Part shown: in pieces, positions 4,912-33,020 of the stretch
How the letters are laid out: the number at the start of each line of letters is the position of its first letter
Numbering within the stretch: the stretch's first letter is position 1
Assembly (NCBI RefSeq): GCF_003569045.1
Contig: NZ_BFCB01000002.1
Coordinates: 248,001 to 312,000, forward strand
Length of the DNA: 64,000 nucleotides
Direction of reading: 5' to 3'
From: Aggregatilinea lenta
GTDB lineage: Bacteria; Chloroflexota; Anaerolineae; Aggregatilineales; Aggregatilineaceae
Position numbers and translations under genes: made by a program
Notes under the pieces: generated by a model
What the model saw: the letters and a program-made list of their open reading frames with translations, nothing else
Told to the model about the DNA's origin: nothing
The model's database searches: none

Positions 4912-5026
4912 CTACCCCGCACTTCGCGGCTGGAGAAAGGAGACGCTTCATACGAGCCGATACGTGGTGACACGTTCGCCCGCACTTTTAGACTGAGAAT
5001 GTTTTACCTTTTGGAGGTAAGAGTCG

Positions 5027-5986
5027 ATGAATCCCAAAAAACTGTTGTCGCTCCTGATCATGGTCACGGTGCTGCTGGCAGTGGCAGTGCCGATGCAAGT
5101 GATCGCGCAAGATGATAACACCCTGCGCATCGGAATGGTCAATCTGACCCAATCCGCCCCCTACTTCATCGGCATGTCGCGTGCGGTTGAAGAGGAAGCC
5201 GCCGTCTACGAGAATATCGAGCTGATCATTACTGACGCAAACGGAGACATCGCCAAGCTGACGTCCGATGTCGAAGACGTGCTAGCGCAGGATGTCGACG
5301 GCATCATCATCAGCGCCGGCTGGATCGAGGCGGCCCCCGCCGCGTTGGATGCGATTCAGCAGGCCGGTGTCCCGGTCGTGCTGGTCGACCGCTTGCTGAA
5401 AGATGGCGAGTACACAAGCTGGATTGGCCCGGATAACTTCACCATCGGTGTCCAGGATGGCGAGTACATCGTCGAGCGCCTGGGAGGCGAGGGCCTGCTG
5501 GTCGTCCTGCGGGGTGGTCCCGCGGATAACACCATCGGTCTCGACCGGACGAACGGCGTGCTGTCAATCGTTGAAGCGTCGAACATCGAAGTCGTTATGG
5601 CCCCCGACTTCGGAAACTGGAGCGAAGACGGCGGCTTCACCCTGATGGAAGACATGCTCGCCCAACATGACCAGATTGATGCAGTCTTCTGCGAGAACGA
5701 CTCGATGTGCCTCGGCGCACAGAAAGCGATTGAGGACGCGGGCCGCAGCGACGAGATGTTCCTGGTCGGTGTCGACGGACAGAAGGAAGCGTTGGTAGCG
5801 ATCATGGAAGGCACCAACTATGCCGCCACCGGGCTGAACAACTCTGATCAGATCGGGCGCGCCGCGTTCCACCGACTGATGGCGATCCTGGCGGGTGCGA
5901 CAGCCCCGAAGGATACCGCTTTCCCATCGCCACGCATCACCATTGACAACGTCATCAAGTACTATAATCCCGACAGCGTTTTCTAG
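5027..5986 (+). CDS. Sugar ABC transporter substrate-binding protein (RbsB-like)
   Basis: A 319-residue periplasmic-binding-protein family 4 member. A Sec signal peptide covers about residues 1-27 (KK, then a long hydrophobic run, cleavage near VIA-QDD). It lacks a lipobox Cys, so it appears released or anchored another way. The mature part shows the RbsB-type pattern, with a repeated DGIIISAG-like strand, FCENDSMCLGA and FLVGVDGQ. A strong GGAGGT ribosome site precedes the ATG. It sits 115 bases behind the permease, a gap that could allow separate expression, and is followed by a hairpin that probably ends the operon. Confidence 0.93.
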   Translation: MNPKKLLSLLIMVTVLLAVAVPMQVIAQDDNTLRIGMVNLTQSAPYFIGMSRAVEEEAAVYENIELIITDANGDIAKLTSDVEDVLAQDVDGIIISAGWIEAAPAALDAIQQAGVPVVLVDRLLKDGEYTSWIGPDNFTIGVQDGEYIVERLGGEGLLVVLRGGPADNTIGLDRTNGVLSIVEASNIEVVMAPDFGNWSEDGGFTLMEDMLAQHDQIDAVFCENDSMCLGAQKAIEDAGRSDEMFLVGVDGQKEALVAIMEGTNYAATGLNNSDQIGRAAFHRLMAILAGATAPKDTAFPSPRITIDNVIKYYNPDSVF

Positions 5987-6011
5987 ACATCTCCGGATAA
6001 CTCAGGTAAAC

Positions 6012-6043
6012 AGCAGGGCGGATGTTCCACTCTCCGCCCTGCT
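6012..6043 (+). terminator. Hairpin terminator after the sugar importer operon
   Basis: A perfect 11-bp stem (AGCAGGGCGGA / TCCGCCCTGCT) with a 10-base loop lies 26 bases past the binding-protein stop. It is followed by CTATTT rather than a clean U run, so termination may be partial. Confidence 0.7.
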
Positions 6044-6586
6044 CTATTTGCGCCCTGCGGAGGGGATTTCAACGTCTTTTTCATCGTCCGTCGTCCCACT
6101 TACGGCGATCACGTCCAACACAAAGTGCCATATAGATAGCATTATACGAAACTACATCTATCCTTGACTTCTTGCCTTCAGGTCAAACGAACTCCCGCAA
6201 CCTTATCGAACTTGCAGAGTTTGTCCGGCAATGCCATTTCTCTTTGGGAAGGCAGATTCTTTGCGTAGACTAATTTTTTAACCTTACGATCTTATGAATA
6301 ATATCTCTGTCTTCTCAACAATCCAGTATGTGACCAGAACTAAATTTACGGAAGCGAGTGGGTGTGCAATAATCGGACGTGCTCTCAGGACCTGCTTCTC
6401 TTTTTCGTCTACGTAGTAGTTTATCAACAGGACCGTCTTTTGAGGGAAAATGCTGCTCGCTCCAGCTTAATATTGCGAGGAATTCTACTCGATTTCAACG
6501 GGATTGACTTAGCCATGCAGCTTAGTTACACTTTATTTATTAGTTTTTGATCGACATCTTTTTATAATATCTTTACAATAGTTTTG

Positions 6587-6616
6587 ATCAGATAGGAATC
6601 ACACGATTCATCTGAT
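6587..6616. repeat. Imperfect inverted repeat in the AT-rich leader
   Basis: ATCAGAT-AG-GAATC, a four-base ACAC loop, then GATTC-ATCTGAT. This gives a 12-bp stem with a two-base bulge. A TATAAT word follows at 6628. It could be a regulator site or a leader RNA hairpin; there is no T tract, so it is not an obvious terminator. Confidence 0.4.
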
Positions 6617-6947
6617 TCAAGGTTGACTATAATTTGTTGCCCGGCATACATTACACACATCTTACCGACTTCGCTGCCTTATAGTCTCCTCTCACCCTGA
6701 TTCCGAAAACACCTAGCTTCTGCAGATGGTTGCCTATCTACAGCAGGACAAAAGGCAAACCTGTATCTGGTCGGCATTCCAGTGGGGTTCATATCTCTTT
6801 TCTGGGTGCGTGTATTCTGGCACATTTGTAGTCAGCAGAAGTTCTTCAATTAGTGTTTAACCCGATAAACTCGGGACCTTCGTTGACGATTAGTACGCTA
6901 ACAAAGGGAATCCAGCTTAGGGACAACTTTCTTCAAGGGCAAACAAT

Positions 6948-8018
6948 ATGCGGCTGTTGTGTGTAGGTGATGTTGCCATTGCCGGTGACGATCTGCCCAA
7001 AATGGACTTACTCTTACCCACGAACGAACTCAAACGCGATTACCTACGCGTCTTGTTCAATTGGGAACTTCCCATGGGCCGCAGCGTTAATCCTCTTCCT
7101 CGAACCAGCGGCCCAAGAATTATCGGAAATTCAGCCGGAGCAATTGCCATCAAGCGGTGGCCACAAGGTTTCGCTGCGTTGGCAAACAACCATATTCTTG
7201 ATGCTGAGGTTGCAGGTCTGCTTGAGACGCAGACCACTTTAAAAGAGACGGGATTTATTCCTTTTGGTGCAGGCTTTTCTCAAACCGCTATTCAAGAGCC
7301 AACTGTTTGGAATGGCCCAGAGGGGCGATTGGGAATTCTGAACTGGGTATTTCCGGAAACGCATCCCGAATGGGGGGTAATTCCAGGTCCGAATTGCTGG
7401 CCAGGAATTGATGCCGGGAGCCAGGCCATCAGGGAACTGAAAAAAACGGTCGATTGGATCCTCGTCGCACCCCATTGGGGCGACGAGGATTTTGCTTATC
7501 CAACCCTGACGGAACGCACTATAGCGCGAGCTCTGATCGAAGCGGGCGCAGATCTGATCATTGGTCATCATCCCCACGTAGTGCGGGGAATGGAGATGAT
7601 CAACGGAAAGCCTGTCTATTACTCGCTCGGCAATTTCTATTTTTCGAAAATCCAAGATCAACAGGGAAACAGGATCTTTAAGCCAGTAGCTCGAAACCGG
7701 GAAGCGCTGGTCATAAGCGTGACGCTAAAACGAGGGCAGCGGCCCGAACTAGAAGCTCTATCGTACTGGCAGGGTTCCAATGGAACATCGCCTGATCGAT
7801 GGGCGCGCGCAGTTTCACGAATGAAACGAGTCTCGCGTCCCCTAGCGAAGCTCTCGGGACCTGAATATACAGATTGGTATGTAAAACGCCGCGCACGATT
7901 TGATCGATGGGAGTACCGACTGCATTTCTCACTGCAGCAGAAGGGATGGAAGGGAGTTCTTCAGTACCCGTTGGTGTTGCTGGAAAGGCACCACAGCCGT
8001 ATATCGGCTAACAACTAA
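6948..8018 (+). CDS. CapA-family (PGA_cap) metallophosphoesterase-like protein
   Basis: A 356-residue CapA/PgsA-like protein, a metallophosphoesterase fold linked to poly-gamma-glutamate and capsule production. Family motifs are in order: GDV (Asp8), NWE (39-41, where relatives have NLE), LANNHI (Asn80, Asn81, His82), HWGDE (His176), GHHPHVVRG (His207, His208, His210) and SLGNF (about 226-230). No signal peptide or membrane anchor is visible, unlike the classic membrane-bound CapA. It opens a tightly spaced plus-strand operon with enolase-like, histidine phosphatase and ATP-grasp genes, so a role in processing a phosphorylated or amide-linked polymer precursor is plausible. A second CapA homologue lies at 25027-26061. 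Confidence 0.88.
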   Translation: MRLLCVGDVAIAGDDLPKMDLLLPTNELKRDYLRVLFNWELPMGRSVNPLPRTSGPRIIGNSAGAIAIKRWPQGFAALANNHILDAEVAGLLETQTTLKETGFIPFGAGFSQTAIQEPTVWNGPEGRLGILNWVFPETHPEWGVIPGPNCWPGIDAGSQAIRELKKTVDWILVAPHWGDEDFAYPTLTERTIARALIEAGADLIIGHHPHVVRGMEMINGKPVYYSLGNFYFSKIQDQQGNRIFKPVARNREALVISVTLKRGQRPELEALSYWQGSNGTSPDRWARAVSRMKRVSRPLAKLSGPEYTDWYVKRRARFDRWEYRLHFSLQQKGWKGVLQYPLVLLERHHSRISANN

Positions 8019-8057
8019 ACGCCTAGATTATCGATCAGCACTATGCGGGGGGATTCA

Positions 8058-9242
8058 ATGGCAGGTATTCAATCTATCTCATATCGAAAAGTGTTTAACT
8101 CACATGTCAATTCCACCACTGAATTCGTGGTGAAATTGAACGATGGATCCACGGGTAGAGCCGCACCGTCCCAGGGCGAGACGATCAGCATTTACGAAGC
8201 TCGAAAAGTGAGCATCAGCCCTGAAACAATCATCCAGGATATCGGCAAAGATGGACTGCTGGGCCAAGATCTCACTCAGGCCGATTTTGATAACTACTTA
8301 CAGCAGAGGATCCCGTCCTTTGGCAGAAACAATGCGTTCAGTTTGTCCGAAGCGTTCTTCGATGCGTCTCAGAAAACCCATTCTCCCTTCGAGTTACTTG
8401 GCAGGGACACGACCAGACTAAAAGCCCCACGGCTGTGCCTGAATATCCTTAATGGTGGATGGCATGCTTATACTAACCCGGTTCTCAGCGATTTTTCGGA
8501 ATTCATGCTCGTTGCGAAGAATCATAATATCGACGAGGTCGTTGATGAACATAACGCTATTCAACGGCGAGTACGCGAAAAACAGCTTGACCAGACTAAG
8601 ACAGTCGTCTCCGGCAACCCGGTCAACTGCTTTGCCACTCGCGATAACCGCGAAGTGCTCGATTTCTTAGTAGATGTCGTAGCTGAATTGGGCCTTGGGG
8701 AAAAATATGAACTAATGATTGATGCTTCTGCAGGGGATTTGTGGAACGGCGAAGGGTATTGTCTAGGTATCACCGATGGTAAAACGCGGTCCAGGGATGA
8801 ATTTATAGCCTACTGGATGGACCTAATCGAGCACTATGGTTTGCGCTTCCTGGAGGATCCATTCCATGAGAAAGACTTCACCAGTTGGCAGAGCCTGACG
8901 ACTACGCAAGACATAAGCTATGTCATTGGGGACAACCTGTATTCCTCCAGCGAAGAGCGCATTCTCGAAGGAGCTGAAAAAAAGTACGCGAACGGCGCGG
9001 TGATCAAGCCCAATCAGGCGGGCACCGTTACCGCTGTGAGGTGTGCCCTGGAAGCGGCTCACCACACCGGCCAGATTGCCATCACATCGCATCGCTCCAT
9101 CAGCACGGAGTCCACCTTCCTGTCACTGCTCACCTGTATGTTCGACGCGCAGTTCATTAAGATCGGCCCTCTACTGACAGACTATTCTTCGGTCGTACGC
9201 TTAAACGAGATCATCAGACTTACGGAGGAGTCATGCCAGTAG
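8058..9242 (+). CDS. Enolase superfamily protein, divergent, missing the GDEGG motif
   Basis: A 394-residue protein that aligns by eye with enolase along its whole length. The start at 8058 is favoured by GGGGGA upstream and by matching the enolase N-terminus; an ATG five codons earlier exists. Enolase residues retained: a PSQGETISIYEAR loop (37-49), His136 in NGGWH, Glu148 in SEFM, metal ligands Asp222, Glu266 (LEDPF) and Asp292 (GDN), Lys317 (IKPNQ), His345-Arg-Ser, and Lys368. The segment expected to read VGDEGG, which carries the catalytic acid Glu211 of yeast enolase, reads VSGNPVN (184-190) instead. The reaction may therefore differ from 2-phosphoglycerate dehydration. It overlaps the next gene and is unlikely to be the glycolytic enolase. 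Confidence 0.85.
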   Translation: MAGIQSISYRKVFNSHVNSTTEFVVKLNDGSTGRAAPSQGETISIYEARKVSISPETIIQDIGKDGLLGQDLTQADFDNYLQQRIPSFGRNNAFSLSEAFFDASQKTHSPFELLGRDTTRLKAPRLCLNILNGGWHAYTNPVLSDFSEFMLVAKNHNIDEVVDEHNAIQRRVREKQLDQTKTVVSGNPVNCFATRDNREVLDFLVDVVAELGLGEKYELMIDASAGDLWNGEGYCLGITDGKTRSRDEFIAYWMDLIEHYGLRFLEDPFHEKDFTSWQSLTTTQDISYVIGDNLYSSSEERILEGAEKKYANGAVIKPNQAGTVTAVRCALEAAHHTGQIAITSHRSISTESTFLSLLTCMFDAQFIKIGPLLTDYSSVVRLNEIIRLTEESCQ

Positions 9243-9862
9243 AGACGCTCATCTATACCATCCGTCACGGCCATACCAGCTACAACGCAGAAAAACGCTA
9301 CGCGGGCAGCATTGACATTTCTCTAAGTGAAAAGGGTATCGCGGACTGCCAGGATGCAGCTCAATTACTGGCCGGGTATCCCTTTGATGTTGTGGTAACT
9401 TCTACCCTGAAACGATCGATTGAAACTGCACGCTTACTCGTGCCCGAGTGCCCTACCGTCATCCCGAATGCATTGTGTAACGAGAGGAATTTTGGAATAA
9501 TGGAGGGGCACACGTGGGAGGAGATACTCACATACGATCCGCCGATTCTGATGATCAACGTCGGGAATGATTTGCATACGGTTAATCCCAGCGGCGGTGA
9601 GCCATTTGAAGACGTGTGGCAGCGAGCCAAGACATTTCAACAGTTTCTGTTCGAAAACTATGAAGGGAAGAACATCCTGGTCATTTCGCATGGCGTCTTT
9701 CTGCAACTGTTCCACGGGCTTCTTCGCGGTCGCAACTGCATCGAGTCGCTGGCAAGTTATCCATCGAATTTGGAGTTATACCGCTTCCATTTTTGCGATA
9801 ACCACCTGATGGGCGAAAAAGTGGTGAGGCTGTGCGACAAGGATATCGACATCCGATTTTAG
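9233..9862 (+). CDS. Histidine phosphatase / phosphoglycerate-mutase-like protein
   Basis: A 209-residue histidine phosphatase superfamily member. It has the phosphate-accepting RHG motif (Arg11, His12), Arg61 in a TLKRSIETA segment, NFGIMEG (about 86-92) and the second catalytic His153 in ISHG. It could act as a mutase or as a phosphatase; the sequence does not decide. The ATG follows a GGAGGAG site and lies inside the end of the enolase-like gene (10-base overlap), so the two are translationally coupled. Pairing a phosphoglycerate-mutase-like enzyme with an enolase-like enzyme suggests work on a phosphoglycerate-like three-carbon compound. Confidence 0.9.
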   Translation: MPVETLIYTIRHGHTSYNAEKRYAGSIDISLSEKGIADCQDAAQLLAGYPFDVVVTSTLKRSIETARLLVPECPTVIPNALCNERNFGIMEGHTWEEILTYDPPILMINVGNDLHTVNPSGGEPFEDVWQRAKTFQQFLFENYEGKNILVISHGVFLQLFHGLLRGRNCIESLASYPSNLELYRFHFCDNHLMGEKVVRLCDKDIDIRF

Positions 9863-9896
9863 CAGCCGCTTACCACAGCAGCCTGGAGAGCTCACC

Positions 9897-11144
9897 ATGT
9901 TTCGCGGTTCGCTGACAGAGAGCAAAGTCTTTAAGAAATATTCAAGGACACTTTTATACCTTAGGACGCGGCAGCATTTTCCGATGGCGAGCATGCATTT
10001 TAGAGATGACCGGGATCACCTGCCTGAAGCCGAAAAAGTGCTGGTTGATTGGCCTGCTGCGATCAAAAAGCCTCGTGTCGCATTGATGCGCGATTATGAT
10101 CCCTATCCCCGCTGGACGAAGTTCTGCCGTTTCCTGGAGAATAATTCAATCCCTTACGAATTCTACGATCTGCAAACCCACGATTGGCTTGAAAAGGCCA
10201 AGGATTTTGACATTTTCATCGGTATTCTCTCAAGCGAGTTTTACCACTTGCAGGAGATGCGAAAGAAATACTTTATTCTAGAAAAGTATCTCGGGAAAAG
10301 TTGTTTCCCATCCTTCGAGCATATTCTGATCTACGAAGATAAAACCCTTGAAGCATTTATTTCCCACATCGTAGACGGCCCGTTTGCGCCGACACACATT
10401 TTCTATGATGAAAACGATGCCCTCCAGGCCATTCAGACCCTGCCATTCCCAATAGTGAGTAAGATCGTTCCGGGATCCGGCTCGGGAGGCGTTGAATGGG
10501 TCCGTGACCAGAAACAGGCTGCTCGAATTATCAAGCACGCCTTTTCGAGAAAAGGCCGGGCGACGTATGCGCCGTATTTTCGGCAGAAAAACTACGTCTA
10601 TTTCCAAGAATTTGTTCCGAACGATGGTTACGATATTCGAGTCATTTTGGTGAATAACTGGGCCTTCGGCTATTACCGGAAGGTGTTGAAAGGCGACTTT
10701 CGCGCTTCTGGGATGAACCTGGTGGAAAAACGCGCGCTGCCAGAGGAAGCTATCCGAACCGCGTGGGAACTCAATAGAAGTGTTAACAGCCCGCTACTGG
10801 TAGTCGATATGGTGCACGGGCTAGACGATCGCTACTATGTGATTGAATATTCTCCCATCTGCCAGATGGAAACGCCAGAGCAGCTCCACGTTAATGGCGT
10901 ACCAGGCACTTATATCATCGAAGAAGACAAAAGCATCCATTTTCGGGAAGGGAAATATTGGGTACATGAGCTGGCACTCCGTGAGTTTTTCTTGAGAAAC
11001 TATTTACCCAAAACTCAAAGAAATCTCTTGACATATGAGACTGGCTTGCAGCCTGCAGAACAATATCAGCAGCACGATCATGGTTACTCAGCTACTGGCG
11101 CAGCACCAACTCCTGGCCGACACACCAGGGAGTCTCAACCATAA
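9897..11144 (+). CDS. ATP-grasp ligase-like protein
   Basis: A 415-residue protein resembling RimK-type ATP-grasp enzymes, which join a carboxylate (through an acyl phosphate) to an amine. Visible parts are a glycine-rich loop after Lys189 (VPGSGSGGVEWV), an adenine-binding YFQEFV strand with Glu238, DIRV (246-249), and a late metal-binding region with Asp304 and Glu317. The usual E-x-N motif reads EYS, so the Asn is replaced. Residues about 385-415 look unstructured. GGAGAG precedes the ATG. Its place behind the enolase-like and phosphatase genes suggests it attaches a small acid or amino acid to a polymer precursor, but the substrate is unknown. Confidence 0.78.
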   Translation: MFRGSLTESKVFKKYSRTLLYLRTRQHFPMASMHFRDDRDHLPEAEKVLVDWPAAIKKPRVALMRDYDPYPRWTKFCRFLENNSIPYEFYDLQTHDWLEKAKDFDIFIGILSSEFYHLQEMRKKYFILEKYLGKSCFPSFEHILIYEDKTLEAFISHIVDGPFAPTHIFYDENDALQAIQTLPFPIVSKIVPGSGSGGVEWVRDQKQAARIIKHAFSRKGRATYAPYFRQKNYVYFQEFVPNDGYDIRVILVNNWAFGYYRKVLKGDFRASGMNLVEKRALPEEAIRTAWELNRSVNSPLLVVDMVHGLDDRYYVIEYSPICQMETPEQLHVNGVPGTYIIEEDKSIHFREGKYWVHELALREFFLRNYLPKTQRNLLTYETGLQPAEQYQQHDHGYSATGAAPTPGRHTRESQP

Positions 11145-11167
11145 AAGTTTATATCAGTGAGGCATTT

Positions 11168-12292
11168 ATGACACCCCAGTTGCGAATCCTCCTCATCATT
11201 GACACGCTGAGAGGTGGGGGGGCACAGCGCCAACTCATCAGTCTTGCGCTTGGGCTGCAAGCGCGAGGTCACTATGTTGAATTCTTTTACTACTGGCCCG
11301 ACAATTTTTTCGCTTCCGAGTTGGAGAAGGCGCAGATACCAGTCCACCTGCACATCAAGTCGAAGCGATACACGCTCGAAGTGATACAGAATCTGCGGCG
11401 AGTGATGCAGCAGGGACATTTTGATGCGGTGTTATCATTTCTGGATGGGCCGAATGCATACACCATCCTCGCGGCTCACAGCCTGAAAAACAGGCCCCGC
11501 GTGATTGTCTCGGAACGTTTTTACGATCCACCGGAAGGCGTTAACTGGCGACAGAGTCTGCCACGCGCCCTGTATCGTCTGGCAGATCATGTCACGACAA
11601 ATTCATACCACCAGCGTGAAACACTGGAACGCAAACTCCCCTGGCTTAAAGGTCGGATATCAACCATTTACAACGGGGTGGATCTTTCCGTGTTTCATCC
11701 CCGTGATCAGGCGCTACCCGCTGATCCCCTGCGTTTACTGGTTGTCGCTACTGTAACTCCCTACAAAAATGGTCTGTGTCTGATCCAGGCGCTCGATATT
11801 TTGGCAAAGTCCTACCAGTTGTTTCCCTGTGTGAACTGGGTAGGCGAGCATGTGATGGCCGCGGAATGGGGCAGCTACAGCCAGCAGATGCAACAGGCTA
11901 TCGCGGACTATCACCTGGAAAGCCAATGGACCTGGTTATATAAGCGGAATGACATTCCAGACCTCATGCGCATGCATCACGCGCTGGTGCACCCCTCCTA
12001 TGGTGAGGGCCTGCCTAACGTTGTATGTGAAGCGCTAGCCTCCGGGCTACCCGTGATCGTCAGCGATACGCTTGATCATCCCCGACTTGTCCAGCACGGG
12101 ATCACCGGATACCTGTTCGATTGGCGTGATCCACAAGATTTAGCCCGATGGATCAAGACGTTCTATGACTTGCCGGTCGAACAAGTTGCGGCTATGAGTG
12201 GCAACGCCAGAGCCTTCGCGGAAGACTATCTGGCACTGGCAGTCTTTGCGGAGCACTATGAGCGACTCTTTATGGCTCGGATGGAAAACTAG
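11168..12292 (+). CDS. Glycosyltransferase family 4 (GT-B fold)
   Basis: A 374-residue retaining glycosyltransferase. The N-terminal domain begins with a hydrophobic strand and a GGGGAQRQL acceptor-site loop. The C-terminal nucleotide-sugar domain starts around NGVDLSVFHP, continues with VVATVTPYKNG, and carries the E-x7-E motif in YGEGLPNVVCEALASG (about residues 277-292). It should transfer a sugar from an NDP-sugar to a lipid-linked oligosaccharide at the cytoplasmic face. It sits 23 bases after the ATP-grasp gene in the same operon. Sugar specificity cannot be inferred. Confidence 0.92.
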   Translation: MTPQLRILLIIDTLRGGGAQRQLISLALGLQARGHYVEFFYYWPDNFFASELEKAQIPVHLHIKSKRYTLEVIQNLRRVMQQGHFDAVLSFLDGPNAYTILAAHSLKNRPRVIVSERFYDPPEGVNWRQSLPRALYRLADHVTTNSYHQRETLERKLPWLKGRISTIYNGVDLSVFHPRDQALPADPLRLLVVATVTPYKNGLCLIQALDILAKSYQLFPCVNWVGEHVMAAEWGSYSQQMQQAIADYHLESQWTWLYKRNDIPDLMRMHHALVHPSYGEGLPNVVCEALASGLPVIVSDTLDHPRLVQHGITGYLFDWRDPQDLARWIKTFYDLPVEQVAAMSGNARAFAEDYLALAVFAEHYERLFMARMEN

Positions 12293-12301
12293 GATAAAGC
12301 C

Positions 12302-13345
12302 ATGAAAATTATTTTGTTGGGCGTATATCCACCTCCTATTGGCGGTGTCTCGATACACCTCCAGCGACTTTCAGAATACTTGTTGGAACATGGGCATTCG
12401 GTCGAAGTGCTGGACTATCCTGGTACGGATGGAGAGATAAAACCCGACTACGTCTTCCGATTGCCCCGTCACCTCTTGGGCAAAGCCTGGTATATCATGC
12501 GGTATGCGAGACAACAGCCATCCAACGCAGTGGTCCATTTTCACGCAGCCGCGATGGATCGCTTTCGTTGGATCGCACCGTTTATGTTCTTGGTTTTTCG
12601 GAAGCAACCCAAGTTTCTTACAATACATAGCGGACTTCTCACCGGCACTTTGAAATATCGCCTGGCGAGGGCACATATTCGCTTCGTTCTGAACCGCTGT
12701 CGTCATGTCATTCCCGTCACCGATGAGCTTGGTAAATACCTGCTGGAGCTGGGCCTTTCGCCAGAGCGCATGACCGTCATTCCGGCATATATTGGAAAAA
12801 TCCCAGAGGCGGACAACCTTCCTGCTGAATTGGCGCAGCTGAAAAAAACGCATAAGCTGGTGGTGACATCCGGATTTCTGATGGCTCCCTACAACTTCGA
12901 TGTCCTGATAGATGTCATACCACATCTTGACTGCATGAAATTCCATTTTATCTTTGTCTTCTATGGAGCTACAGATCCAGCCTACGAAGCCACAATCCTG
13001 CGAAGTCTAAAGCAACTTAACAACGTTACGATACTTCACAATCAACCAGCCGATGTTTTCCTGAGCGTCCTGCACGCTTCTGATGTCTACGTGCGGACAA
13101 CAGTTATGGACGGCGATGCAATTACTATTCGTGAAGCGCTCGATTTCAATACAACAGTGTTTGCTACCGATAGCGTTAAACGTCCCGAAGCCTGCCGTCT
13201 TTTCAAATACAATGATCCCTCATCTCTGTGTGAGCTGTTTACCGACTTGCCTGAAGCAAGTCCTGACGACAAACACGTCAGTGCGTCCGCCTGTAACGTG
13301 CAGCGGCTGCTTGGCATCTACGAAGCCGCTCTCTCACTTTCATAG
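12302..13345 (+). CDS. Glycosyltransferase, GT4-like
   Basis: A 347-residue GT-B type glycosyltransferase starting MKIILLGVYPPPIGGVSIHL, a typical acceptor-domain N-terminus with a GG loop. The donor domain has the late MDGDAITIREAL motif, where Asp replaces the first Glu of the common E-x7-E signature. It begins nine bases after the previous glycosyltransferase gene and has an AGGA ribosome site. It probably adds another residue to the repeat unit; donor and acceptor are unknown. Confidence 0.85.
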   Translation: MKIILLGVYPPPIGGVSIHLQRLSEYLLEHGHSVEVLDYPGTDGEIKPDYVFRLPRHLLGKAWYIMRYARQQPSNAVVHFHAAAMDRFRWIAPFMFLVFRKQPKFLTIHSGLLTGTLKYRLARAHIRFVLNRCRHVIPVTDELGKYLLELGLSPERMTVIPAYIGKIPEADNLPAELAQLKKTHKLVVTSGFLMAPYNFDVLIDVIPHLDCMKFHFIFVFYGATDPAYEATILRSLKQLNNVTILHNQPADVFLSVLHASDVYVRTTVMDGDAITIREALDFNTTVFATDSVKRPEACRLFKYNDPSSLCELFTDLPEASPDDKHVSASACNVQRLLGIYEAALSLS

Positions 13346-13396
13346 ACATTAGATCATCCACATGCCTTACCTCAAATGCACGGGAATGAGGAGAAG

Positions 13397-14011
13397 ATGG
13401 CCAATCTCGACTATCTCCAGTTTGATACACCGTGGAAACTTCTCAATGAATTACAGCGTCTCGCGCTGCTACCCCTCGTACGCTACACATTTATGTCTGC
13501 GCAAATTGCTTGGGGAACTGGCTGGAAAATTTACGGTATACCTATCATTCAACGATGCCGGTACAGCACGATTGTGTTTGGAGCCAACCTCCAACTGCGA
13601 TCAACTGCGCGCAGTAATCCTTTGGGTCCGAATCGTCCTGTGATCATATGTACGCTCCGAAGAGGAGCCAATCTGATCATTGGGGACAGTTTTGGTATGT
13701 CGGGCGGCTCGATTGTGGCGCAAACCGGAATTCATATTGGCCAGCGAGTTGCAGTTGGGGCCAATACGATTATCTGCGACACGGATTTCCATCCTCTTTT
13801 TCCGGAGATGCGCCGGACTGTCAGCGATCAAGGGGAGGCCGCTCCAATTGAAATTGAGGATGATGTCTTTGTCGGCATGCAGTGCTTGATCTTAAAAGGT
13901 GTCACGATAGGATGCGGCAGCGTTATCGGAGCCGGAAGCGTCGTAACCAAAAGCCTCCCGCCCAGAGTTATTGCAGCCGGAAATCCGGCGCGGGTGATTC
14001 GGGAAATATAG
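13397..14011 (+). CDS. Hexapeptide-repeat (left-handed beta-helix) acyltransferase
   Basis: About 204 residues; the C-terminal two thirds carry isoleucine-patch hexapeptide repeats (for example GANTIICDTDFH, IEDDVFVGMQCLILKG, VIGAGSVVTKSLP and the ending AGNPARVI). This matches O-acetyltransferases of the LacA/WcaF/CysE class that acetylate sugars. The start at 13397 has GAGGAG close upstream; an in-frame ATG at 13376 is the alternative. Position between glycosyltransferases and a deacetylase suggests it decorates the exopolysaccharide repeat unit. Confidence 0.87.
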   Translation: MANLDYLQFDTPWKLLNELQRLALLPLVRYTFMSAQIAWGTGWKIYGIPIIQRCRYSTIVFGANLQLRSTARSNPLGPNRPVIICTLRRGANLIIGDSFGMSGGSIVAQTGIHIGQRVAVGANTIICDTDFHPLFPEMRRTVSDQGEAAPIEIEDDVFVGMQCLILKGVTIGCGSVIGAGSVVTKSLPPRVIAAGNPARVIREI

Positions 14012-14037
14012 CTAGAAAGCGCCTTAGGGATATAGCG

Positions 14038-15057
14038 ATGAAAAGATCACGACTAGCCCCCACTCTGTTATTCAAAGTTGGTGGAGCGCGGGTGCTGGAT
14101 TGGGCGTGGGGACCGAACAGGCTGACTGTCCTGGCCTATCACCGCGTAAACTACATTGACACGCCCGATTGCTTAGGCTTGCGATATACGGTGAGCGCAT
14201 CCCCCGAAGAGTTCGCCCAGCAAATGGAATATGTCGTGCAGCACTTCAACGTGATCGATATTGCGGCCCTGCAACACTATGTTGTCGACGAGGTGCCGCT
14301 GCCACCTCGTCCATTGCTCATCACATTTGATGATGGTTACCTGGATAACTACGAGCATGCCTACCCCATCTTAAAGAAACACGGTCTCCCAGCGGTGATT
14401 TTTTTGATCACGCAGTTCATCGGTTCAGAAAACTGGCCCTGGTGGGATGAAATCGCCTACTGCTTTGCGCACACCAAGTGTACTCACACCGATCTACCCC
14501 TTCTCGGCGAACTGTCTTTAGCCTCGTCACAAGAACGCGATGCGATGTTGGTGGTCCTGTTGGAGCGTTTAAAAGCCATACCCGATGCGGAAAAACAGGC
14601 CGTCCTGCGCATTATACATGAGCGCCTCGACGTCGAACGACCTACACAGCGGCTCTTTGTGGATTGGGACCAGGCGCGGGAACTGGTCGCCCACGGGATC
14701 GACTGTCAGTCGCATACGGCGTCACATCCCATTTTGACGCGCGTGCCCAAGGCGGACCTGTCGTACCAATTGGTTGACGCGCGAGTGCAGCTTGAGGCGG
14801 AGCTGGGCACCCCAATTTATGCTTTTGCCTATCCGAACGGCGGACCGCTGGACTATAATGAAACGGTACTGGAAGCTCTGCGTGAAGCAGACTATACTCT
14901 GGCTTTTACCTTAACTCGCGGACCTATCCCCGCCTGCCAAATCCGGAAGCGCCCGCTGTTAATTCCCCGCGTGAACATCAGTTTCCTGGATAATTTCCCG
15001 ACCTTTGCCATGAAGGCGACGGGGTTGGGTGGGATTGCCAATCGGTTACGTCTGTAA
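14038..15057 (+). CDS. Polysaccharide deacetylase (NodB homology domain)
   Basis: About 339 residues, carbohydrate esterase family 4. Motif 1 is TFDDG, supplying the base and a metal-binding Asp; motif 2 is SHTASH, supplying the two His metal ligands; a FAYPNGG motif follows. The N-terminus carries the LAYHRVN strand common to this group. No clear signal peptide is seen. The ATG at 14038 has AGGGA upstream; the frame is open further 5' but that region overlaps the acyltransferase gene in another frame. It probably removes N- or O-acetyl groups from the polymer or a lipid-linked intermediate, and is the last gene of the plus-strand arm. Confidence 0.92.
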   Translation: MKRSRLAPTLLFKVGGARVLDWAWGPNRLTVLAYHRVNYIDTPDCLGLRYTVSASPEEFAQQMEYVVQHFNVIDIAALQHYVVDEVPLPPRPLLITFDDGYLDNYEHAYPILKKHGLPAVIFLITQFIGSENWPWWDEIAYCFAHTKCTHTDLPLLGELSLASSQERDAMLVVLLERLKAIPDAEKQAVLRIIHERLDVERPTQRLFVDWDQARELVAHGIDCQSHTASHPILTRVPKADLSYQLVDARVQLEAELGTPIYAFAYPNGGPLDYNETVLEALREADYTLAFTLTRGPIPACQIRKRPLLIPRVNISFLDNFPTFAMKATGLGGIANRLRL

Positions 15058-15311
15058 CACCTCAAGACCCTGAACGAGGCTTGTAGGTGCTATAAAGTCA
15101 ATCTGAAGGTGATTCTTCGCTCAACCGGATCGTCGATAGTCGTGGTGTGAACCTCCAAGTCACTCGCGTCATTTGCCAGGAACGTCGCCCTGCCCTATCC
15201 CCACATCAGCGGTGGGAATTTGTTTCGCGTTCTTCGCGTATACTTTTTGTCCGTTCCCCTGCTCTCAGTCTTCGAAGCATCGAAAGCCGATCTGACCCAA
15301 GCAACGCCTCG

Positions 15312-17222
15312 CTACGCCAGAACTGCCTGCCGTTCTTCGGGCACGATTTCATCTACAAGGACAAGCTCCTGTAGCTGGCTCAACACATCCTGACCGGGAA
15401 GGGGTTCTGCGGTTACTAAGTAGTGCACTCGCTCGAAAAAGTTCGCTGGCTGCTGTCCATAGCAATGGCTGACAAGCTGCACAATATCTGGGTGCAGCGT
15501 TGGTCGTAGCCCTTCTTCGGGGGAACACAACTCCTCGTGTAGTTTCTCCCCAGGCCGGACGCCGGTGAAGGTAATCGGAATGTCGATGTACGGTCGCAAA
15601 CCGCGCATCCGGATCATCCGCTCGGCCAGATCGACGATTCGTACCTCCTCTCCCATTTTCAGCATGAACAGATCATCCCCGCTGGTCATGCAAGCAGCCT
15701 GGATAACCAGGCTCACTGCTTCGGGGATGCTCATGAAATAACGCATCATCTCCTTATCGGTAATGGTGACGGGGCCGCCTGCGTCAATCTGGCGATTGAA
15801 GATCGGAACGACGCTGCCGCGACTGCCCAGGACGTTGCCAAAGCGCACAGCCGTAAACCGCGTCGCATCCTCTCCATTCGAGAACGCACGCATCAGGAGT
15901 TCGCAGACACGCTTGCTGGCCCCCATCACGCACGACGGATTGACCGCCTTGTCAGTCGAGATCAGGACAAAGCGCTTCACGCCGTAGTCTCGTGCTAACT
16001 CCGCGCTGTTTAGCGTCCCGCCGATATTGACCCGAATAGCTTCCTGGGGATAGAACTCCAGCATGGGCACGTGCTTGTAGGCAGCCGCATGGAAGGCCAC
16101 TTGAGGCCGGTATTGTCGGAAGATCCGTTCCAGGGCTTCGCGGTCGGTGATATCAACCAGCGCCAGAACAAGACTGTTGTCCTGATCCTTAGGCGCCAAC
16201 TCGGTATATAGATCGTGTAGCCCGCTCTCGTTGTTGTCCAGCATGATCAGCCGGACAGGCTCATACCTCAGAATCTGCCGACACAGCTCGGACCCGATCG
16301 ACCCTGCAGCCCCGGTGACCAGGACGACCTTGTTCAAAATAGGTGTCGCGTCCACGCCGGGATACCAGCGCACGGACTGGCGACCCAGTAGGTCTTCAGC
16401 GCGCACGTCGCGCAACAGCGGTGCGTTATTGTTGCTATTGATCGCCGCCAGCACGTCCGGCACGATCTTGATACGGGCATCCGTACTCTCACAGAACTCC
16501 AGAATGCTCCTGAAATCAGGTCCCGAAATATTGTGGATCGCGACGGTGATTAGATCGATTTTGAGCCGCTCTGCAAGGCGCGTAATGTCGTACCGTGTAC
16601 CAAGCACCCGGCAGCCTTCAATGTACAATTTCTGCTTGGCCGGATCGTCATCGACAAAGCCGACAACCCTGCATCGTTCCCCTCGCGCGCGGTGTTTGAG
16701 CCGCCAGGCGGTCACCTGACCCGCATCTCCCGCTCCTACAATCAAGACGCGGATCTCCGATTGTGGAAACTCCCGATTCCAGATGGCGCGCCACCGCCAG
16801 TCGAAACCGCTTAGCAGACGAGAGCGGTATCGAACGGCTACAAATCCGGCGAAGGCGAGAGCATGACCGACAAAGACGACGCTGAGGGGAATGGGGCGAG
16901 GACGCAGCACGAAGTCAACTGCACCGAGAATCAGCCCGGATAGCCCAGCCGCTTTGACAAGCACGATAACGTCATGGCCGCTGGTACACGACCAGATCCG
17001 GTGATACGCACCACTGAGATAGAGCGCCGTCGTAGTGCAGAGAATCGCGCCGGTGAGAAACTCGACCGTACGCTCCACACTGAGCGGTGTTGTCAGGGCG
17101 CGAACAGTATACGTCAGCAGATAGGCCGCCGTAAGAATAATGACGTCAAGTGCCAAAAGTAGCGCTTTGGGGAAGAAAGTCCCCGGAATATGCCTGAACG
17201 CTAACCGCTGTGATGAACCCAT
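15312..17222 (-). CDS. NDP-sugar 4,6-dehydratase, membrane-anchored (WbpM/PglF/CapD type)
   Basis: A 636-residue long-form dehydratase/epimerase. The N-terminal ~120 residues hold about four transmembrane helices, then a first Rossmann-like region (VGAGDAGQ), then the catalytic SDR domain with VTGAAGSIGSE (about 301-311), HAAAYKHVP and STDKAVNP. In the SDR Y-x3-K site the Tyr is Met (VMGASKR, about 432), a known feature of the WbpM/PglF group. Expected reaction: UDP-GlcNAc to the 4-keto-6-deoxy sugar. It is the third gene of a minus-strand operon after an aminotransferase and a phosphoglycosyl transferase. Confidence 0.92.
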   Translation of the reverse strand: MGSSQRLAFRHIPGTFFPKALLLALDVIILTAAYLLTYTVRALTTPLSVERTVEFLTGAILCTTTALYLSGAYHRIWSCTSGHDVIVLVKAAGLSGLILGAVDFVLRPRPIPLSVVFVGHALAFAGFVAVRYRSRLLSGFDWRWRAIWNREFPQSEIRVLIVGAGDAGQVTAWRLKHRARGERCRVVGFVDDDPAKQKLYIEGCRVLGTRYDITRLAERLKIDLITVAIHNISGPDFRSILEFCESTDARIKIVPDVLAAINSNNNAPLLRDVRAEDLLGRQSVRWYPGVDATPILNKVVLVTGAAGSIGSELCRQILRYEPVRLIMLDNNESGLHDLYTELAPKDQDNSLVLALVDITDREALERIFRQYRPQVAFHAAAYKHVPMLEFYPQEAIRVNIGGTLNSAELARDYGVKRFVLISTDKAVNPSCVMGASKRVCELLMRAFSNGEDATRFTAVRFGNVLGSRGSVVPIFNRQIDAGGPVTITDKEMMRYFMSIPEAVSLVIQAACMTSGDDLFMLKMGEEVRIVDLAERMIRMRGLRPYIDIPITFTGVRPGEKLHEELCSPEEGLRPTLHPDIVQLVSHCYGQQPANFFERVHYLVTAEPLPGQDVLSQLQELVLVDEIVPEERQAVLA

Positions 17223-17293: not shown

Positions 17294-17893
17294 TCAAGCT
17301 GGCTTACGCTGCGCCAGGGCGACCAGCGTCGCCATCAGTATCCTCAGGTCCAACATAAGCGATCTATCCCGAACGTACGTCAGATCCATCTGCAACTTCT
17401 TGGGCAGAAGGTCATGGACGTATTGAGTTTCCCAATCATCTGCAGCCAGCAGGGCTTCTTCATGTCGGTACCGGATAGACGCAAGGCTTGTAATGCCCGG
17501 GCGTACCGTTAGAACGGCTCTCTCCTGCGGCGTATAAAGCGCAACGTATCGCGGATCTTCTGGACGTGGCCCCACTAGGCTCATGTCGCCACGCAGCACG
17601 TTGAACAACTGGGGTAACTCATCCAGTTTGGTCTGGCGCAGAAACCGGCCAACTGACGTGATGCGAGAATCGCCGGCCCCTGTAACGCCAGGTCCGGCGC
17701 GGTCGGCGTCCAGAACCATCGACCGGAATTTGTACACGGTGAAAGGCCGCCCATCGCGACCAACGCGCTGTGCCCGGTAGAGAATGGGTCCCGGCGACGT
17801 TACATAGATCAGAATCGCAAGCACGGGCATCAGCGGCAATATGAGCAGCAGTCCTAAGGCACTTCCCACTAGATCTACGCTTCGCTTTAGCAT
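17294..17893 (-). CDS. Undecaprenyl-phosphate sugar-1-phosphate transferase (PglC/WcaJ C-domain type)
   Basis: A 199-residue monotopic phosphoglycosyl transferase. It has an N-terminal hydrophobic hairpin (about 8-32), the conserved RVGRDGRPFTVYKFRSM region (43-59), the Asp91-Glu92 catalytic dyad in TKLDELPQL, and GDMSLVGPRP. It is the short form without the WcaJ N-terminal membrane domain. Expected role: start repeat-unit assembly by moving a sugar phosphate to undecaprenyl phosphate. Its start overlaps the end of the aminotransferase gene by seven bases, so the two are translationally coupled. Confidence 0.94.
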   Translation of the reverse strand: MLKRSVDLVGSALGLLLILPLMPVLAILIYVTSPGPILYRAQRVGRDGRPFTVYKFRSMVLDADRAGPGVTGAGDSRITSVGRFLRQTKLDELPQLFNVLRGDMSLVGPRPEDPRYVALYTPQERAVLTVRPGITSLASIRYRHEEALLAADDWETQYVHDLLPKKLQMDLTYVRDRSLMLDLRILMATLVALAQRKPA

Positions 17894-19053
17894 CGGTATT
17901 GTTCCACGATATCTTGCACAGCGTCGATGACGTAATCCACATCCTCTTCGGTCAGCGCAGGATGTAGAGGCAGCGACACCAGGCGTTGGTATTCCTGATA
18001 AGCGATTGGGAAATCAAGCGGCATCCAACCATACTTATCCCGATAGTAGGGATGCAGATGGATCGGAATGAAATGGACACTCGTGCCGATACAACGTAGC
18101 TTCATCTCCTCGATGAACTGGTTTCGTTGGATGCGCAACCGGTCTGTGTTCAGGCGCAGCACGTAGAGATGCCAGGCGGAACTGCAATAGGGACGTTCCG
18201 TCGGCACCTCCAATTCCGGCATATTTGAAAAGGCCTCGTGATAGCGAGCCACCACCTGCTGGCGCCGTAGCTGCATCTTCTGCAGACGCGCCAATTGGAC
18301 GAGGCCCATCGCAGCCTGGATGTCGGTCAGGTTGTATTTGAATCCAGGAACCACCACTTCGTAATACCAGGAGCCATTTTCCCCGTAGCGCCGCCATGCA
18401 TCGCGACTCATTCCATGCAGGCTATAGGTTCGCGCCTTCTCGATCAATTCGGAGCGCCCCGTCAGCATGCCGCCTTCCGCGGTGGTTAGATTTTTCGTCG
18501 CATAGAAACTGAAGCTGGTCAGATCCCCGATGGTGCCTACGGTCTCACCACAGTACGACGCTGGCAGCGCGTGGGCCGCGTCCTCGATGACGAAGAGTTT
18601 ATGGGCCGCCGCGAGGTCAAGGATTGGATACATCTCCGCAGGATGCCCCGCGTAATGCACCGGCAGAATGGCTTTAGTGCGATCCGTAATCGAATCGGCA
18701 ACGGCAAGAGGGTCAATCAGAAGTGTATCCGGTTCTACGTCCGCCAAAACGACCCGCGCGCCAACATGTTCAATCACGTTGGCCGACGCAGCAAACGTCA
18801 TTGGCGTTGTAATGACTTCGTCGCCAGGACCTATGCCGAGGGTTATCAACGCCAAATGGAGTCCTGCTGTGCAGGAATTCAGGGCAAGCGCGCTTTCGGC
18901 CCCCAGAAAAGTTGCAAACTGCTGTTCAAAGGATTTAGTTTGGGGACCCGTCGTGATCCAGCATGAACGTAAGGTGTTTATAACTGCGCAGACCTCCTCC
19001 TCTGTGAGCGCCGGAGAAGCGAATGGAAGGAATGTTTGCCGTCGGACGAGCAT
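17887..19053 (-). CDS. DegT/DnrJ/EryC1-family sugar aminotransferase
   Basis: About 388 residues, PLP-dependent. The PLP-binding Lys187 lies in YATKNLTTAEGG and the cofactor-binding Asp158 in IEDAAHAL. An ATG at 19053 has GGAAGGAT seven bases upstream; a TTG seven codons earlier is less likely. With the dehydratase it should make a 4-amino-4,6-dideoxy sugar (PglE-like chemistry), which the adjacent phosphoglycosyl transferase could load on the lipid carrier. It is the first gene of the minus-strand trio. Confidence 0.93.
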   Translation of the reverse strand: MLVRRQTFLPFASPALTEEEVCAVINTLRSCWITTGPQTKSFEQQFATFLGAESALALNSCTAGLHLALITLGIGPGDEVITTPMTFAASANVIEHVGARVVLADVEPDTLLIDPLAVADSITDRTKAILPVHYAGHPAEMYPILDLAAAHKLFVIEDAAHALPASYCGETVGTIGDLTSFSFYATKNLTTAEGGMLTGRSELIEKARTYSLHGMSRDAWRRYGENGSWYYEVVVPGFKYNLTDIQAAMGLVQLARLQKMQLRRQQVVARYHEAFSNMPELEVPTERPYCSSAWHLYVLRLNTDRLRIQRNQFIEEMKLRCIGTSVHFIPIHLHPYYRDKYGWMPLDFPIAYQEYQRLVSLPLHPALTEEDVDYVIDAVQDIVEQYRC

Positions 19054-20049
19054 TTCTTTGATCCTTCCGTGCAATGTCGCAGATTATGTACCGCCTGCGC
19101 CCATCATCGCCGCACCCTGTGGGGCGATCGCCAGAAACCGGGTCACTCACTCGATCAGGTGAGGGCCCTGGCATAAGGCTTCCCGACTCTTGGGTGGCTA
19201 AGAATGATGAACACACTTTCAGTAACGGAACAGGTCCTTGCGACTGTGATGCACGCGACCAGGAGAGATGTGAGGGAGGAGTGGGGGTGGGCGGCTTGCG
19301 CACGGCCTGCAAGGGTTTTTTATAGCCCGAAATCTACGCAATATTTCAATCTACATTCACTGGAGAGAGAGCAGCTCATCTCTCCACGCTATATCGCCCC
19401 CTCTCAGCAGACATAAGGTCAAATTTTGCAGAAACTAAGAACACCTAGTAACGAAAGATCTATTTCACACCTTGTACACAGGATAGCAATCTATCCTAAA
19501 TATCACATTACAATACCTTACTGAATCCTTACAGTAGTAACAGTTTGAATTATAGAAGCAAAGATATTAATAAAGGATGGTCATGGCACCGGTATTCTCA
19601 GAAAATTATTATGATAAATATATAAAAATAATTGTTTATACAGTCCTATAGCCAACCACGTTTGGAATATGGTAGAGTATTAGGAACGATAGATTAGCTG
19701 CTCTGGACAGCAAACAGCCAGCCTAGCGGCGCGGGGAACCGAAAATCGATGCCTTAGTAGAAAGCGGGAAGCCCCGTGGCCTTGCAGCATTCGGCAATGA
19801 AAGATAGAAGGAATAGCGTTGTCTATCCCTGTTCTGGAAATCGAGCATTCTCGCGCCGCGCATGTCTCCTGACGAACCGGCCTCGTCATACCAATCAGTG
19901 CGAGACCAACCTGCCCATCTACCCGGCCTTGCTCGGCTGGCTTGTTCTCCTCTTCCCTGGCCCCAGGAATCCGACATGGACCAGTCCGGCCAAGCTCGCC
20001 GCGCCCATTATGTCATCGCAATCGTGAATCGATGAGCAGGAGATACCCA
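19054..20049. other. Intergenic region between divergent genes, with an AT-rich core
   Basis: About 1 kb between the start of the aminotransferase operon (minus strand) and the DUF4091 gene (plus strand). The stretch near 19,430-19,680 is strongly AT-rich; the parts on either side have ordinary composition. No convincing gene or RNA element is recognised. It should hold the two divergent promoters. Confidence 0.5.
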
Positions 20050-32367: not shown

Positions 32368-32486
32368 GCTTCTGGTCCGAGTAGTGTCAGCGAAGCGGTT
32401 TTGCGCATAGGGTAGGGTTGGAAGCAGTGAGGAGATATGGTTCAGGGCAGGATACCGGCAGTTCGACGAGTCTAAAGGAGACAGGG

Positions 32487-33020
32487 ATGGAACCGTCAAA
32501 GTGTCAGATCTTCTGCATGAATTCGATGTCGGATGGCCTTGCCAGAGACTTGCACCGATCGCCCTATATGGACTTTCGAATCTGGCTGGCCCGGCAGTTG
32601 GGACCGAACCGGAAACGTGCTATCAAAAAACGCATCGCGTACTGGTTGACTTTCGTGTCCACTCTCTTCGGCAAGCGTCAGGCAAGCGAACCGCTTGTAG
32701 GCTCCGACCTCGCGGCCCCACACTTTGCTCCGGGTGATCGGGTGCGCGTGCGATCACGAGAGCAAATTCAGGCCACGCTCGGGCTGTTCGGCGACTGCAA
32801 AGGGCTGGTCATCATGCCCGAAATGTGGCGCTACTGTGACACCGAGCAGCGCATTTTTAAGCTCGTTGGGCGCTACGTAGACGAGCGCGAGCTGCGGGTC
32901 CGCAAAGCGACAGGTATCGTGCTGCTGGAAGGGCTGATGTGCGAAGGAACCCAGGTGTTCCCGTGTGACCGGTCATGTTTCTTCTTCTGGCGTGAAGAGT
33001 GGCTTACGAAAATCGAATAG
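32487..33020 (+). CDS. Small uncharacterised protein with SH3-like segment and conserved-looking Cys cluster
   Basis: I do not recognise a named family. 177 residues from the ATG behind AAAGGAG; in-frame codons further upstream lack a ribosome site. Residues 1-75 are basic with a hydrophobic stretch (about 48-61). Residues 79-90 read HFAPGDRVRVRS, like the first strand of an SH3 barrel. The C-terminal part has Cys104, Cys117, Cys152, Cys160 and Cys164, and ends in an aromatic FFFWREEWL block (165-173). The Cys spacing could bind a metal or form disulfides. It lies 119 bases after the FemAB/GNAT-like gene at the end of the exopolysaccharide locus. A role in polymer modification is only inferred from position. 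Confidence 0.7.
   Translation: MEPSKCQIFCMNSMSDGLARDLHRSPYMDFRIWLARQLGPNRKRAIKKRIAYWLTFVSTLFGKRQASEPLVGSDLAAPHFAPGDRVRVRSREQIQATLGLFGDCKGLVIMPEMWRYCDTEQRIFKLVGRYVDERELRVRKATGIVLLEGLMCEGTQVFPCDRSCFFFWREEWLTKIE

Follow-up and report, generated by a model that had tools for sequence, protein, structure and literature searches.

The nearest worked-out parallel that we found for the genes described here appears to be the amidation cassette of the Campylobacter jejuni HS:2/HS:19 capsule. In that cassette, Cj1437 makes (S)-serinol phosphate from dihydroxyacetone phosphate and Cj1436 makes ethanolamine phosphate from serine phosphate. The C-terminal TupA-like ATP-grasp domain of Cj1438 attaches these units to glucuronic acid of the growing chain through its C6 carboxylate, after which the HAD phosphatase Cj1435 takes off the phosphate (PMC11800379, PMC11800397). 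The genes in question lie in a 64,000-nt stretch of the Aggregatilinea lenta (Chloroflexota) contig NZ_BFCB01000002.1, positions 248,001 to 312,000 (the window, meaning the whole stretch that was analysed), where four plus-strand open reading frames (ORFs) at 6948-11144 encode, according to Pfam, a CapA-family protein, an enolase-like protein (ENO2), a histidine phosphatase and a RimK-like ATP-grasp protein. An earlier interpretation made from the letters alone (the sequence-only reading) had named the same four genes and families, and Pfam agrees with it (PF09587, PF00113, PF00300 and PF08443). The likeness would lie in a small phosphorylated two- or three-carbon unit, a TupA-like ligase working on a surface polysaccharide and a dedicated phosphatase; the difference lies in a HAD phosphatase and Cj1436/Cj1437 there, against ENO2, a histidine phosphatase and, in the window, a RimK-like ligase here. 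Of the components of the C. jejuni cassette only the ligase family agrees, and only at three of the loci described below (L026, L028 and L055). Cj1436 and Cj1437 depend on pyridoxal phosphate (PLP).

Other described systems share single features with the locus. CapBCA, a poly-gamma-glutamate capsule system, also sets a CapA-family protein beside an amide-forming ligase, but the window ligase is of the ATP-grasp type, and no CapB or CapC family match was found among the scanned window ORFs. ComA and ComB are a phosphosulfolactate synthase and a phosphatase, in which a nucleophile is added to phosphoenolpyruvate (PEP) and the 2-phosphate is then removed; this logic of addition followed by dephosphorylation is similar, while the folds are not known to be related. 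In CA_C2195-type neighbourhoods, an ATP-grasp aminoacyl ligase is found among glycosyltransferases, and surface-carbohydrate modification was proposed from gene neighbourhood alone (PMC4000134); unlike the window, these neighbourhoods carry sialic-acid-type genes, and the main text of that paper contains 0 occurrences of enolase. The set of ENO2, phosphatase and ligase was not found described among the papers listed in searches of the open-licence PMC literature, PMC13302981 and PMC4431377 included, a scope outside which most subscription papers fall. Our reading, to which we give a probability of about 0.48, is that ENO2 and the phosphatase make a three-carbon unit that an ATP-dependent ligase joins to a surface glycan. 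The core of this cassette is ENO2 plus the histidine phosphatase, and it is patchily distributed across phyla.

By Pfam, ENO2 belongs to the enolase subgroup of the enolase superfamily: it scores 114.7 bits against Enolase_C and 21.1 bits, under the cut-off, against MR_MLE_C. That subgroup is presumed monofunctional (PMC7246345). Many enolase-superfamily paralogs are reported from the SAR202 group, but most of their annotations (sugar-acid dehydratase, RspA, mandelate racemase and dipeptide epimerase) are those of other subgroups (PMC6946804). The AlphaFold model of ENO2 (mean pLDDT 88.1, pTM 0.88; weaker in loop 46-55 and at the ends) finds enolases as its best Foldseek matches, with a TM score of 0.83 by query length. 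ENO2 is nonetheless probably a family separate from glycolytic enolase: it reaches 148.3 bits against the curated enolase equivalog TIGR01060, whose cut-off is 300, and it is 27% identical to the ordinary enolase encoded elsewhere in the source genome (6.2 Mb, 5 contigs). In an unrooted tree with long branches, in which the L029 sequence was flagged for odd composition, a 100/100 branch separates all 10 full-length ENO2 proteins from 15 ordinary enolases.

During the enolase reaction an aci-carboxylate of the 2-phospho-acid is formed, and a Glu211-type acid then expels the C3 hydroxyl. The residues for the first half of this mechanism are kept. The Mg ligands D227/E271/D297, K322, K373, H350-R351-S352, H141 and E153 are invariant in the 11 or 12 ENO2 rows that cover them, and we take them to be equivalent to Asp246, Glu295, Asp320 (Mg2+), Lys345, Lys396, His373-Arg374-Ser375, His159 and Glu168 of yeast enolase. 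ENO2 thus resembles enolase (EC 4.2.1.11) in its fold, its Mg ligands and its equivalents of Lys345, Lys396 and the His-Arg-Ser triad, and departs from it in the Glu211 equivalent, the catalytic loops, the branch and the curated cut-off. The stretch that bears Glu211 reads [VL]GDEGGFAP in 15/15 ordinary enolases and x-[VI]-[SN]-[GN]-N-x-V, free of acids, in 12/12 covering ENO2 rows; three rows (L024, L025, L029) have a non-conserved acid 4-5 residues beyond the stretch, past a conserved Phe. In place of Gln167, eight rows have Ser, two His and two Pro. Loop 1 changes from SGASTG in ordinary enolase to xGETxS, and the His159 loop has gained three residues within a stretch bearing an invariant Y-T-N-P. 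Altogether E46, T47, Y143-T144-N145-P146 and N192 are ENO2-specific and invariant in 12/12. With the residues for the aci-carboxylate retained and the hydroxyl-expelling acid gone, ENO2 should be a poor enolase, and the enolase-type step put forward in the sequence-only reading is probably not the ordinary one, since the Glu211 equivalent is missing.

ENO2 was found in 12 genomes: four Chloroflexota (the window genome included), two Geothrix, one further genome of the Geothrix-phylum sample (G510), and one each of Latescibacteria, Nitrospirae, Caldisericota, Eisenbacteria and Krumholzibacteriota. Its frequency is 3/396 in genomes of the class (called at E<=1e-42), 3/247 in the Geothrix phylum, 1/245 in the phylum of the Nitrospirae metagenome-assembled genome (MAG) and 2/80 in the group holding the Latescibacteria and Krumholzibacteriota MAGs, in class and phylum samples that were built to contain the seed genomes. 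It was not seen in any of 60 relatives from the same family or order (best matches <=32% identity); eight of the 60 gave no match whatever, some of them incomplete genomes. A pattern scan of one genome per species with two short peptides (CLNILNGG and WHAYTNPV), which members without these peptides escape, returned 20 loci, of which ten are ENO2 (49-74% identity; L022-L030 and L038) and ten are ordinary-type enolases (27-29%). The locus of G510, L055, was recovered only through whole-genome search. Alongside ENO2, 10/12 genomes encode an ordinary enolase; none was seen in G439 and G444 (1.5 and 2.0 Mb). We infer that the cassette spread by transfer. Spread on plasmids or viruses was considered and rejected: 19 IMG/VR stretches matched the pattern and 0 were confirmed as ENO2 relatives, and the 336 matching plasmid records all fall below 60% identity (27-30% for the 15 matches listed). 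Locus flanks were searched with the window proteins and a few added ones, selected neighbours were scanned against Pfam, and gene positions in GC-rich loci were set with tblastn.

A phosphatase gene lies directly downstream of ENO2 in 11/12 of these genomes. The exception is L029, where a remnant at 1294-1398, 60% identical over 35 residues and then interrupted by in-frame stops, sits between intact ENO2 and ATP-grasp genes. Farther downstream in the same locus, which comes from the Caldisericota MAG, are ORFs with a weak transposase match. Within the class sample the phosphatase subfamily (E<=1e-35) occurs in exactly the same 3/396 genomes as ENO2; with the window genome left out and kinship ignored, the chance that the two families share the same 2 genomes of 395 is 1 in 77,815. 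Members of the histidine phosphatase superfamily carry an RH motif, a second Arg, a Glu and a second His, and R11, H12, R61, E84 and H153 of the subfamily are invariant in the 8/8 copies aligned, out of 11 intact ones. The sequence-only reading had left a choice between mutase and phosphatase. The protein looks more like a phosphatase: its best NCBIfam models are CobC and PspA-type, although all models are under their cut-offs, and its best solved relative is an entry named 'phosphatase'. The mutase alternative fares worse, with 51.3 bits against 81.7 for TIGR01258 and every listed mutase model below its cut-off.

Directly after the phosphatase or, in L029, its remnant, 7/12 ENO2 loci encode an ATP-dependent ligase, and this third gene is exchangeable among three distant families. 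It is a RimK-like ATP-grasp protein in the window, L024 and L029, and a TupA-like ATP-grasp protein (PF14305) in the two Geothrix loci L026 (2.7e-39) and L028 (1.7e-40) and in L055 (73% identity to L028); in L023 it is an asparagine-synthase-like protein at 11945-13732, which also weakly resembles lasso-peptide cyclases (NF033535, 5.4e-07, far under the cut-off). The ligase ORF overlaps the intact phosphatase ORF in 4/6 cases and is separated from it by 34 nt in the window and 127 nt in L023. No window polysaccharide protein matches near the L026 and L028 genes, which argues that the ligase partners the pair and not merely an exopolysaccharide (EPS) locus. The co-occurrence of the enolase-like protein with ATP-grasp genes that was suggested as a check is borne out: an ATP-grasp gene is directly downstream in 6/12, and a seventh genome, that of L022, carries a RimK-like gene away from the pair, in an EPS locus of its own (L052) that also holds relatives of the window GT4 glycosyltransferase (44%) and acyltransferase (54%). 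In the class sample, with the window genome left out and kinship ignored, the chance that at least one of the two ENO2 genomes also has the RimK-like ligase (3/395 genomes) is ~0.015. The L027 locus (Nitrospirae MAG) differs, in that three paralogues (30-1274, 1296-2576 and 4411-5655; the first two 50-58% identical to the third) flank the ENO2-phosphatase pair. They share the motifs FFSGGID and NCGxCEKCxRTMLxL, the former presumably recalling the SGGIDS motif of PP-loop ATPases, and are possibly an undescribed ligase family of PP-loop type.

The ATP-grasp protein of the window matches PF08443 at 31.5 bits (cut-off 21) and falls far short of the RimK family TIGR00768 (41.7 against 143.4). Its family profile finds the ArgX structure 3vpb at 1.1e-10, and ArgX is also the best Foldseek match (2.1e-13), on a low-confidence model. 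It appears to share with the RimK/LysX/ArgX amino-acid ligases an ATP-grasp core, recognised by profile and, on the weak model, by fold; these ligases give its best matches in both comparisons. It is unlike them in its length of 415 aa, its E-x-S for E-x-N and its scores far under the NCBIfam RimK cut-offs. An ATP-grasp core carries a Mg-binding E-x-N. The Ser reported at the Asn position of this motif is real and is a trait of the subfamily (internal identity 38-52%), in which the Glu is kept and the Asn replaced in 6/6 aligned relatives, as E-x-S in 5/6 and E-x-A in 1/6.

What was observed is the modelled fold, the residues lost and gained, the conserved gene order, the exchange of ligase families and the presence of a normal enolase beside ENO2; the three reactions of the pathway, its substrate and its acceptor are what we infer. 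The cassette would draw a three-carbon building block from the 2-phosphoglycerate/PEP pool. ENO2 would bind a 2-phosphoglycerate- or PEP-like phospho-acid with Mg2+, and Lys322 (yeast Lys345) would form an aci-carboxylate, as in enolase. With the hydroxyl-expelling acid absent and the loops above that site rebuilt, this intermediate would take another course: a group other than hydroxide may be added to or removed from C3, or C2 may be inverted. The presence of a phosphatase alongside ENO2 implies that a phosphorylated product is dephosphorylated, before or after ligation; by analogy with C. jejuni, the phosphatase may act after the ligase. The presence of an ATP-dependent ligase likewise implies that the product ends in an amide or ester, which would be formed through a carboxylate, onto a sugar of a surface glycan. 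For the window, the RimK-like ATP-grasp protein would act as ligase, and the glycan would be the exopolysaccharide made by the downstream glycosyltransferases. The carboxylate could be that of the ENO2 product, joined to an amino sugar, or that of a uronic acid of the polymer. DegT aminotransferase genes lie close to the window operon and occur in L055 and in L020, which shares a contig with L024; they occur as well in L053, which is without ENO2. A more specific version, which we regard as somewhat unlikely, has ENO2 add a nucleophile other than water (e.g., ammonia, sulfite or a thiol) to PEP, giving a 3-substituted 2-phospholactate that the phosphatase and the interchangeable ligase would turn into a new surface decoration.

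Several observations weigh against a surface-glycan decoration pathway. A recognised ligase is not adjacent in 4/12 ENO2 loci (L022, L025, L062 and L063): L025 has a PLP-fold enzyme 349 nt on, L062 a GNAT protein and L063 nothing recognised, and no RimK-like relative was found at 1e-6 in the genomes of these last three loci, while TupA-like proteins were not sought genome-wide. The L023 match is weak (PF00733, 2.5e-05; 24.5 bits against a cut-off of 21). The L027 paralogues match nothing in Pfam (E<=0.05) or NCBIfam (E<=0.01) and only at chance level among PDB sequences (E<=10), and with no match from these libraries their PP-loop identity was left unproven and they were not counted as ligases. 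EPS-type neighbours are found at only 4/12 ENO2 loci (window, L024, L029 and L055). In the class sample, a RimK-like ligase occurs in one of the two non-self ENO2 genomes and is absent from G325. The structure model of the window ATP-grasp protein is poor (pLDDT 55.8) and unusable beyond the fold. The alignment around Glu211 is ambiguous, with Glu211 opposite G191 in one alignment and P193 in the other. Finally, CapA and RimK-like ATP-grasp genes are neighbours without the ENO2-phosphatase pair in L053 (G365), and ATP-grasp occurs without CapA or ENO2 in L054 (G410); the ENO2-phosphatase pair could be a small-molecule pathway with broader functions, taken over by polysaccharide loci. Since the ATP-grasp gene occurs without ENO2 in G365 and G410, its product may act on a substrate unrelated to the pair, and ENO2 and the phosphatase may be optional.

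The arrangements in L053 and L054 indicate that the four genes of the window represent an ENO2-phosphatase pair placed in a CapA/ATP-grasp context. CapA and ATP-grasp seem to form a unit of their own. CapA adjoins ENO2 in 2/12 genomes (window and L024) and is an accessory, not a core component; a core role was rejected on this count and on its position beside ATP-grasp without ENO2 in L053. Of the pathway that the sequence-only reading had all four genes share, the fixed ENO2-phosphatase pair, found in several phyla and often with a ligase third, survives, and CapA drops out of the core. The ATP-grasp protein keeps its proposed place as ligase where a RimK- or TupA-like protein is present (6/12), as an exchangeable partner that four loci lack next to the pair.

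The first alternative holds that the genes are independent neighbours, ENO2 and the phosphatase being a salvage or metabolite-repair pair and the adjacent ligase incidental. The phosphatase pairing alone would suit metabolite repair, and the four loci without a recognised adjacent ligase and the 8/12 without EPS-type neighbours fit as well. We nevertheless hold it to be rather unlikely, as a ligase comes next in 7/12 loci, is drawn from three distant families and overlaps the intact phosphatase in 4/6, and the patchy spread (0/60 near relatives, 3/396 of the class sample) is unlike that of housekeeping genes. More doubtful is a C2 epimerase, which would take the C2 proton from 2-phospho-D-glycerate and give it back on the opposite face to yield 2-phospho-L-glycerate, for the phosphatase to release L-glycerate and the ligase to place a glyceroyl amide on an amino sugar. 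An enzyme that only transfers protons could make use of the retained K322, E153 and metal site after loss of the hydroxyl-expelling acid, and amino-sugar genes (DegT) lie near the window operon and in L020 and L055 (also in the ENO2-less L053). Against this, a base on the opposite face is without direct evidence, the rebuilt loop with its invariant Y-T-N-P and E46 suggests an altered C3 site beyond mere loss, and the exchangeable ligases are explained no better.

A dedicated ordinary enolase, which would feed PEP, or glycerate via the phosphatase, to a polysaccharide pathway, is decidedly improbable. It would account for the shared fold and for most of the catalytic residues, but the Glu211 equivalent is missing in all covering rows, catalytic loop 1 and the His159 loop are changed, and an ordinary enolase is already present in most of these genomes; no pyruvyltransferase was found among the scanned window ORFs, which are a subset of all ORFs. 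A simple duplicate of the ordinary enzyme is likewise unlikely, given the loss of the acid, the position on a branch of its own and the score under the TIGR01060 cut-off. Carboxyphosphonoenolpyruvate synthase of bialaphos biosynthesis is an enolase homologue with a different reaction on a PEP-type substrate, no second precedent of this kind being known to us; nothing was found in searches of the open-licence PMC literature for comparing its residues with those of ENO2. A similar role for ENO2 in a phosphonate or phosphinate pathway is very improbable, with a PEP mutase above the TIGR02320 cut-off in 0/9 searched of the 12 ENO2 genomes (best weak match G441, 117.3 against 319.55 bits), in a search that had no positive control, the 14 control genomes also giving 0.

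The window bears out the placement of the four genes in an exopolysaccharide locus, because the gene run continues with two GT4 glycosyltransferases, an acyltransferase and a polysaccharide deacetylase (Table 1). The run comprises eight closely spaced plus-strand genes, of which CapA, ENO2, the phosphatase and ATP-grasp are the first. Two of the four genes overlap, as had been described: the phosphatase ATG at 9233 precedes the ENO2 stop TAG (9240-9242), an overlap of 10 nt, with GGAGGAG just upstream. Promoter-like sites in 5900-15400 number 10, against 9.4 in shuffled sequences, and terminator-like sites 5, against 8.7; being near the shuffled level, these counts are uninformative on transcripts. 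The convergent cluster that follows also holds an O-antigen-ligase/Wzy-type protein, a flippase-type protein and a second CapA.

Table 1. Features of the predicted window operon and the adjoining convergent cluster (window coordinates).
Feature	Coordinates	Strand	Evidence and remarks
CapA/PGA_cap-family protein, 356 aa	6948..8018	+	PF09587 4.5e-41, 141.5 bits vs cut-off 27
ENO2, enolase-subgroup protein, 399 aa	8043..9242	+	PF00113 6.6e-33, over cut-off
Histidine-phosphatase-superfamily protein, 209 aa	9233..9862	+	PF00300 9.3e-36
RimK/LysX/ArgX-like ATP-grasp ligase (predicted), 415 aa, E-x-S for E-x-N	9897..11144	+	PF08443 1.7e-07
GT4 glycosyltransferase, same gene run	11168..12292	+	PF00534 3.3e-23; 44% relative beside ATP-grasp in L052
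GT4 glycosyltransferase	12302..13345	+	PF13439 3.1e-16
Hexapeptide-repeat acyltransferase	13376..14011	+	PF14602/PF00132
Polysaccharide deacetylase; start codon uncertain, overlaps acyltransferase ORF	13882..15057	+	PF01522 1.4e-23
Membrane-type UDP-sugar 4,6-dehydratase-like protein, convergent cluster	15312..17222	-	PF02719 2.7e-109; best NCBIfam PseB, below cut-off
Sugar transferase, would start lipid-linked unit	17294..17893	-	PF02397 5.6e-62
DegT/DnrJ sugar aminotransferase, could supply amino sugar	17887..19074	-	PF01041 2.1e-124

The second CapA-family gene lies at 25027-26061 on the minus strand of the same polysaccharide region, and a third is found on a different contig of the genome. 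The window CapA at the head of the gene run weakly matches the model of the lasso-peptide epimerase MslH (7.5e-18, far under the cut-off). No Pfam match at E<=0.01 was found for three long ORFs that lie within or next to the polysaccharide cluster, 23661-25025 (-), 31393-32367 (+) and 32418-33020 (+). Adjoining the region, a 2404-aa ORF at 33879-41093 (-) has 15 Calx-beta stretches, bacterial Ig/cadherin-like domains and an SH3 domain, and would encode a very large protein that is either secreted or exposed at the surface.

The logic of such decorations is already known; the enzyme proposed here to make the unit is not. At three genes each, the loci of Geothrix rubra Red803 and Geothrix limicola Red804 are of a size that suits expression and assay. 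For a subgroup presumed monofunctional, the ENO2 branch is a testable exception, and its cassette points to lower glycolysis as the source of a polysaccharide (or other) decoration.

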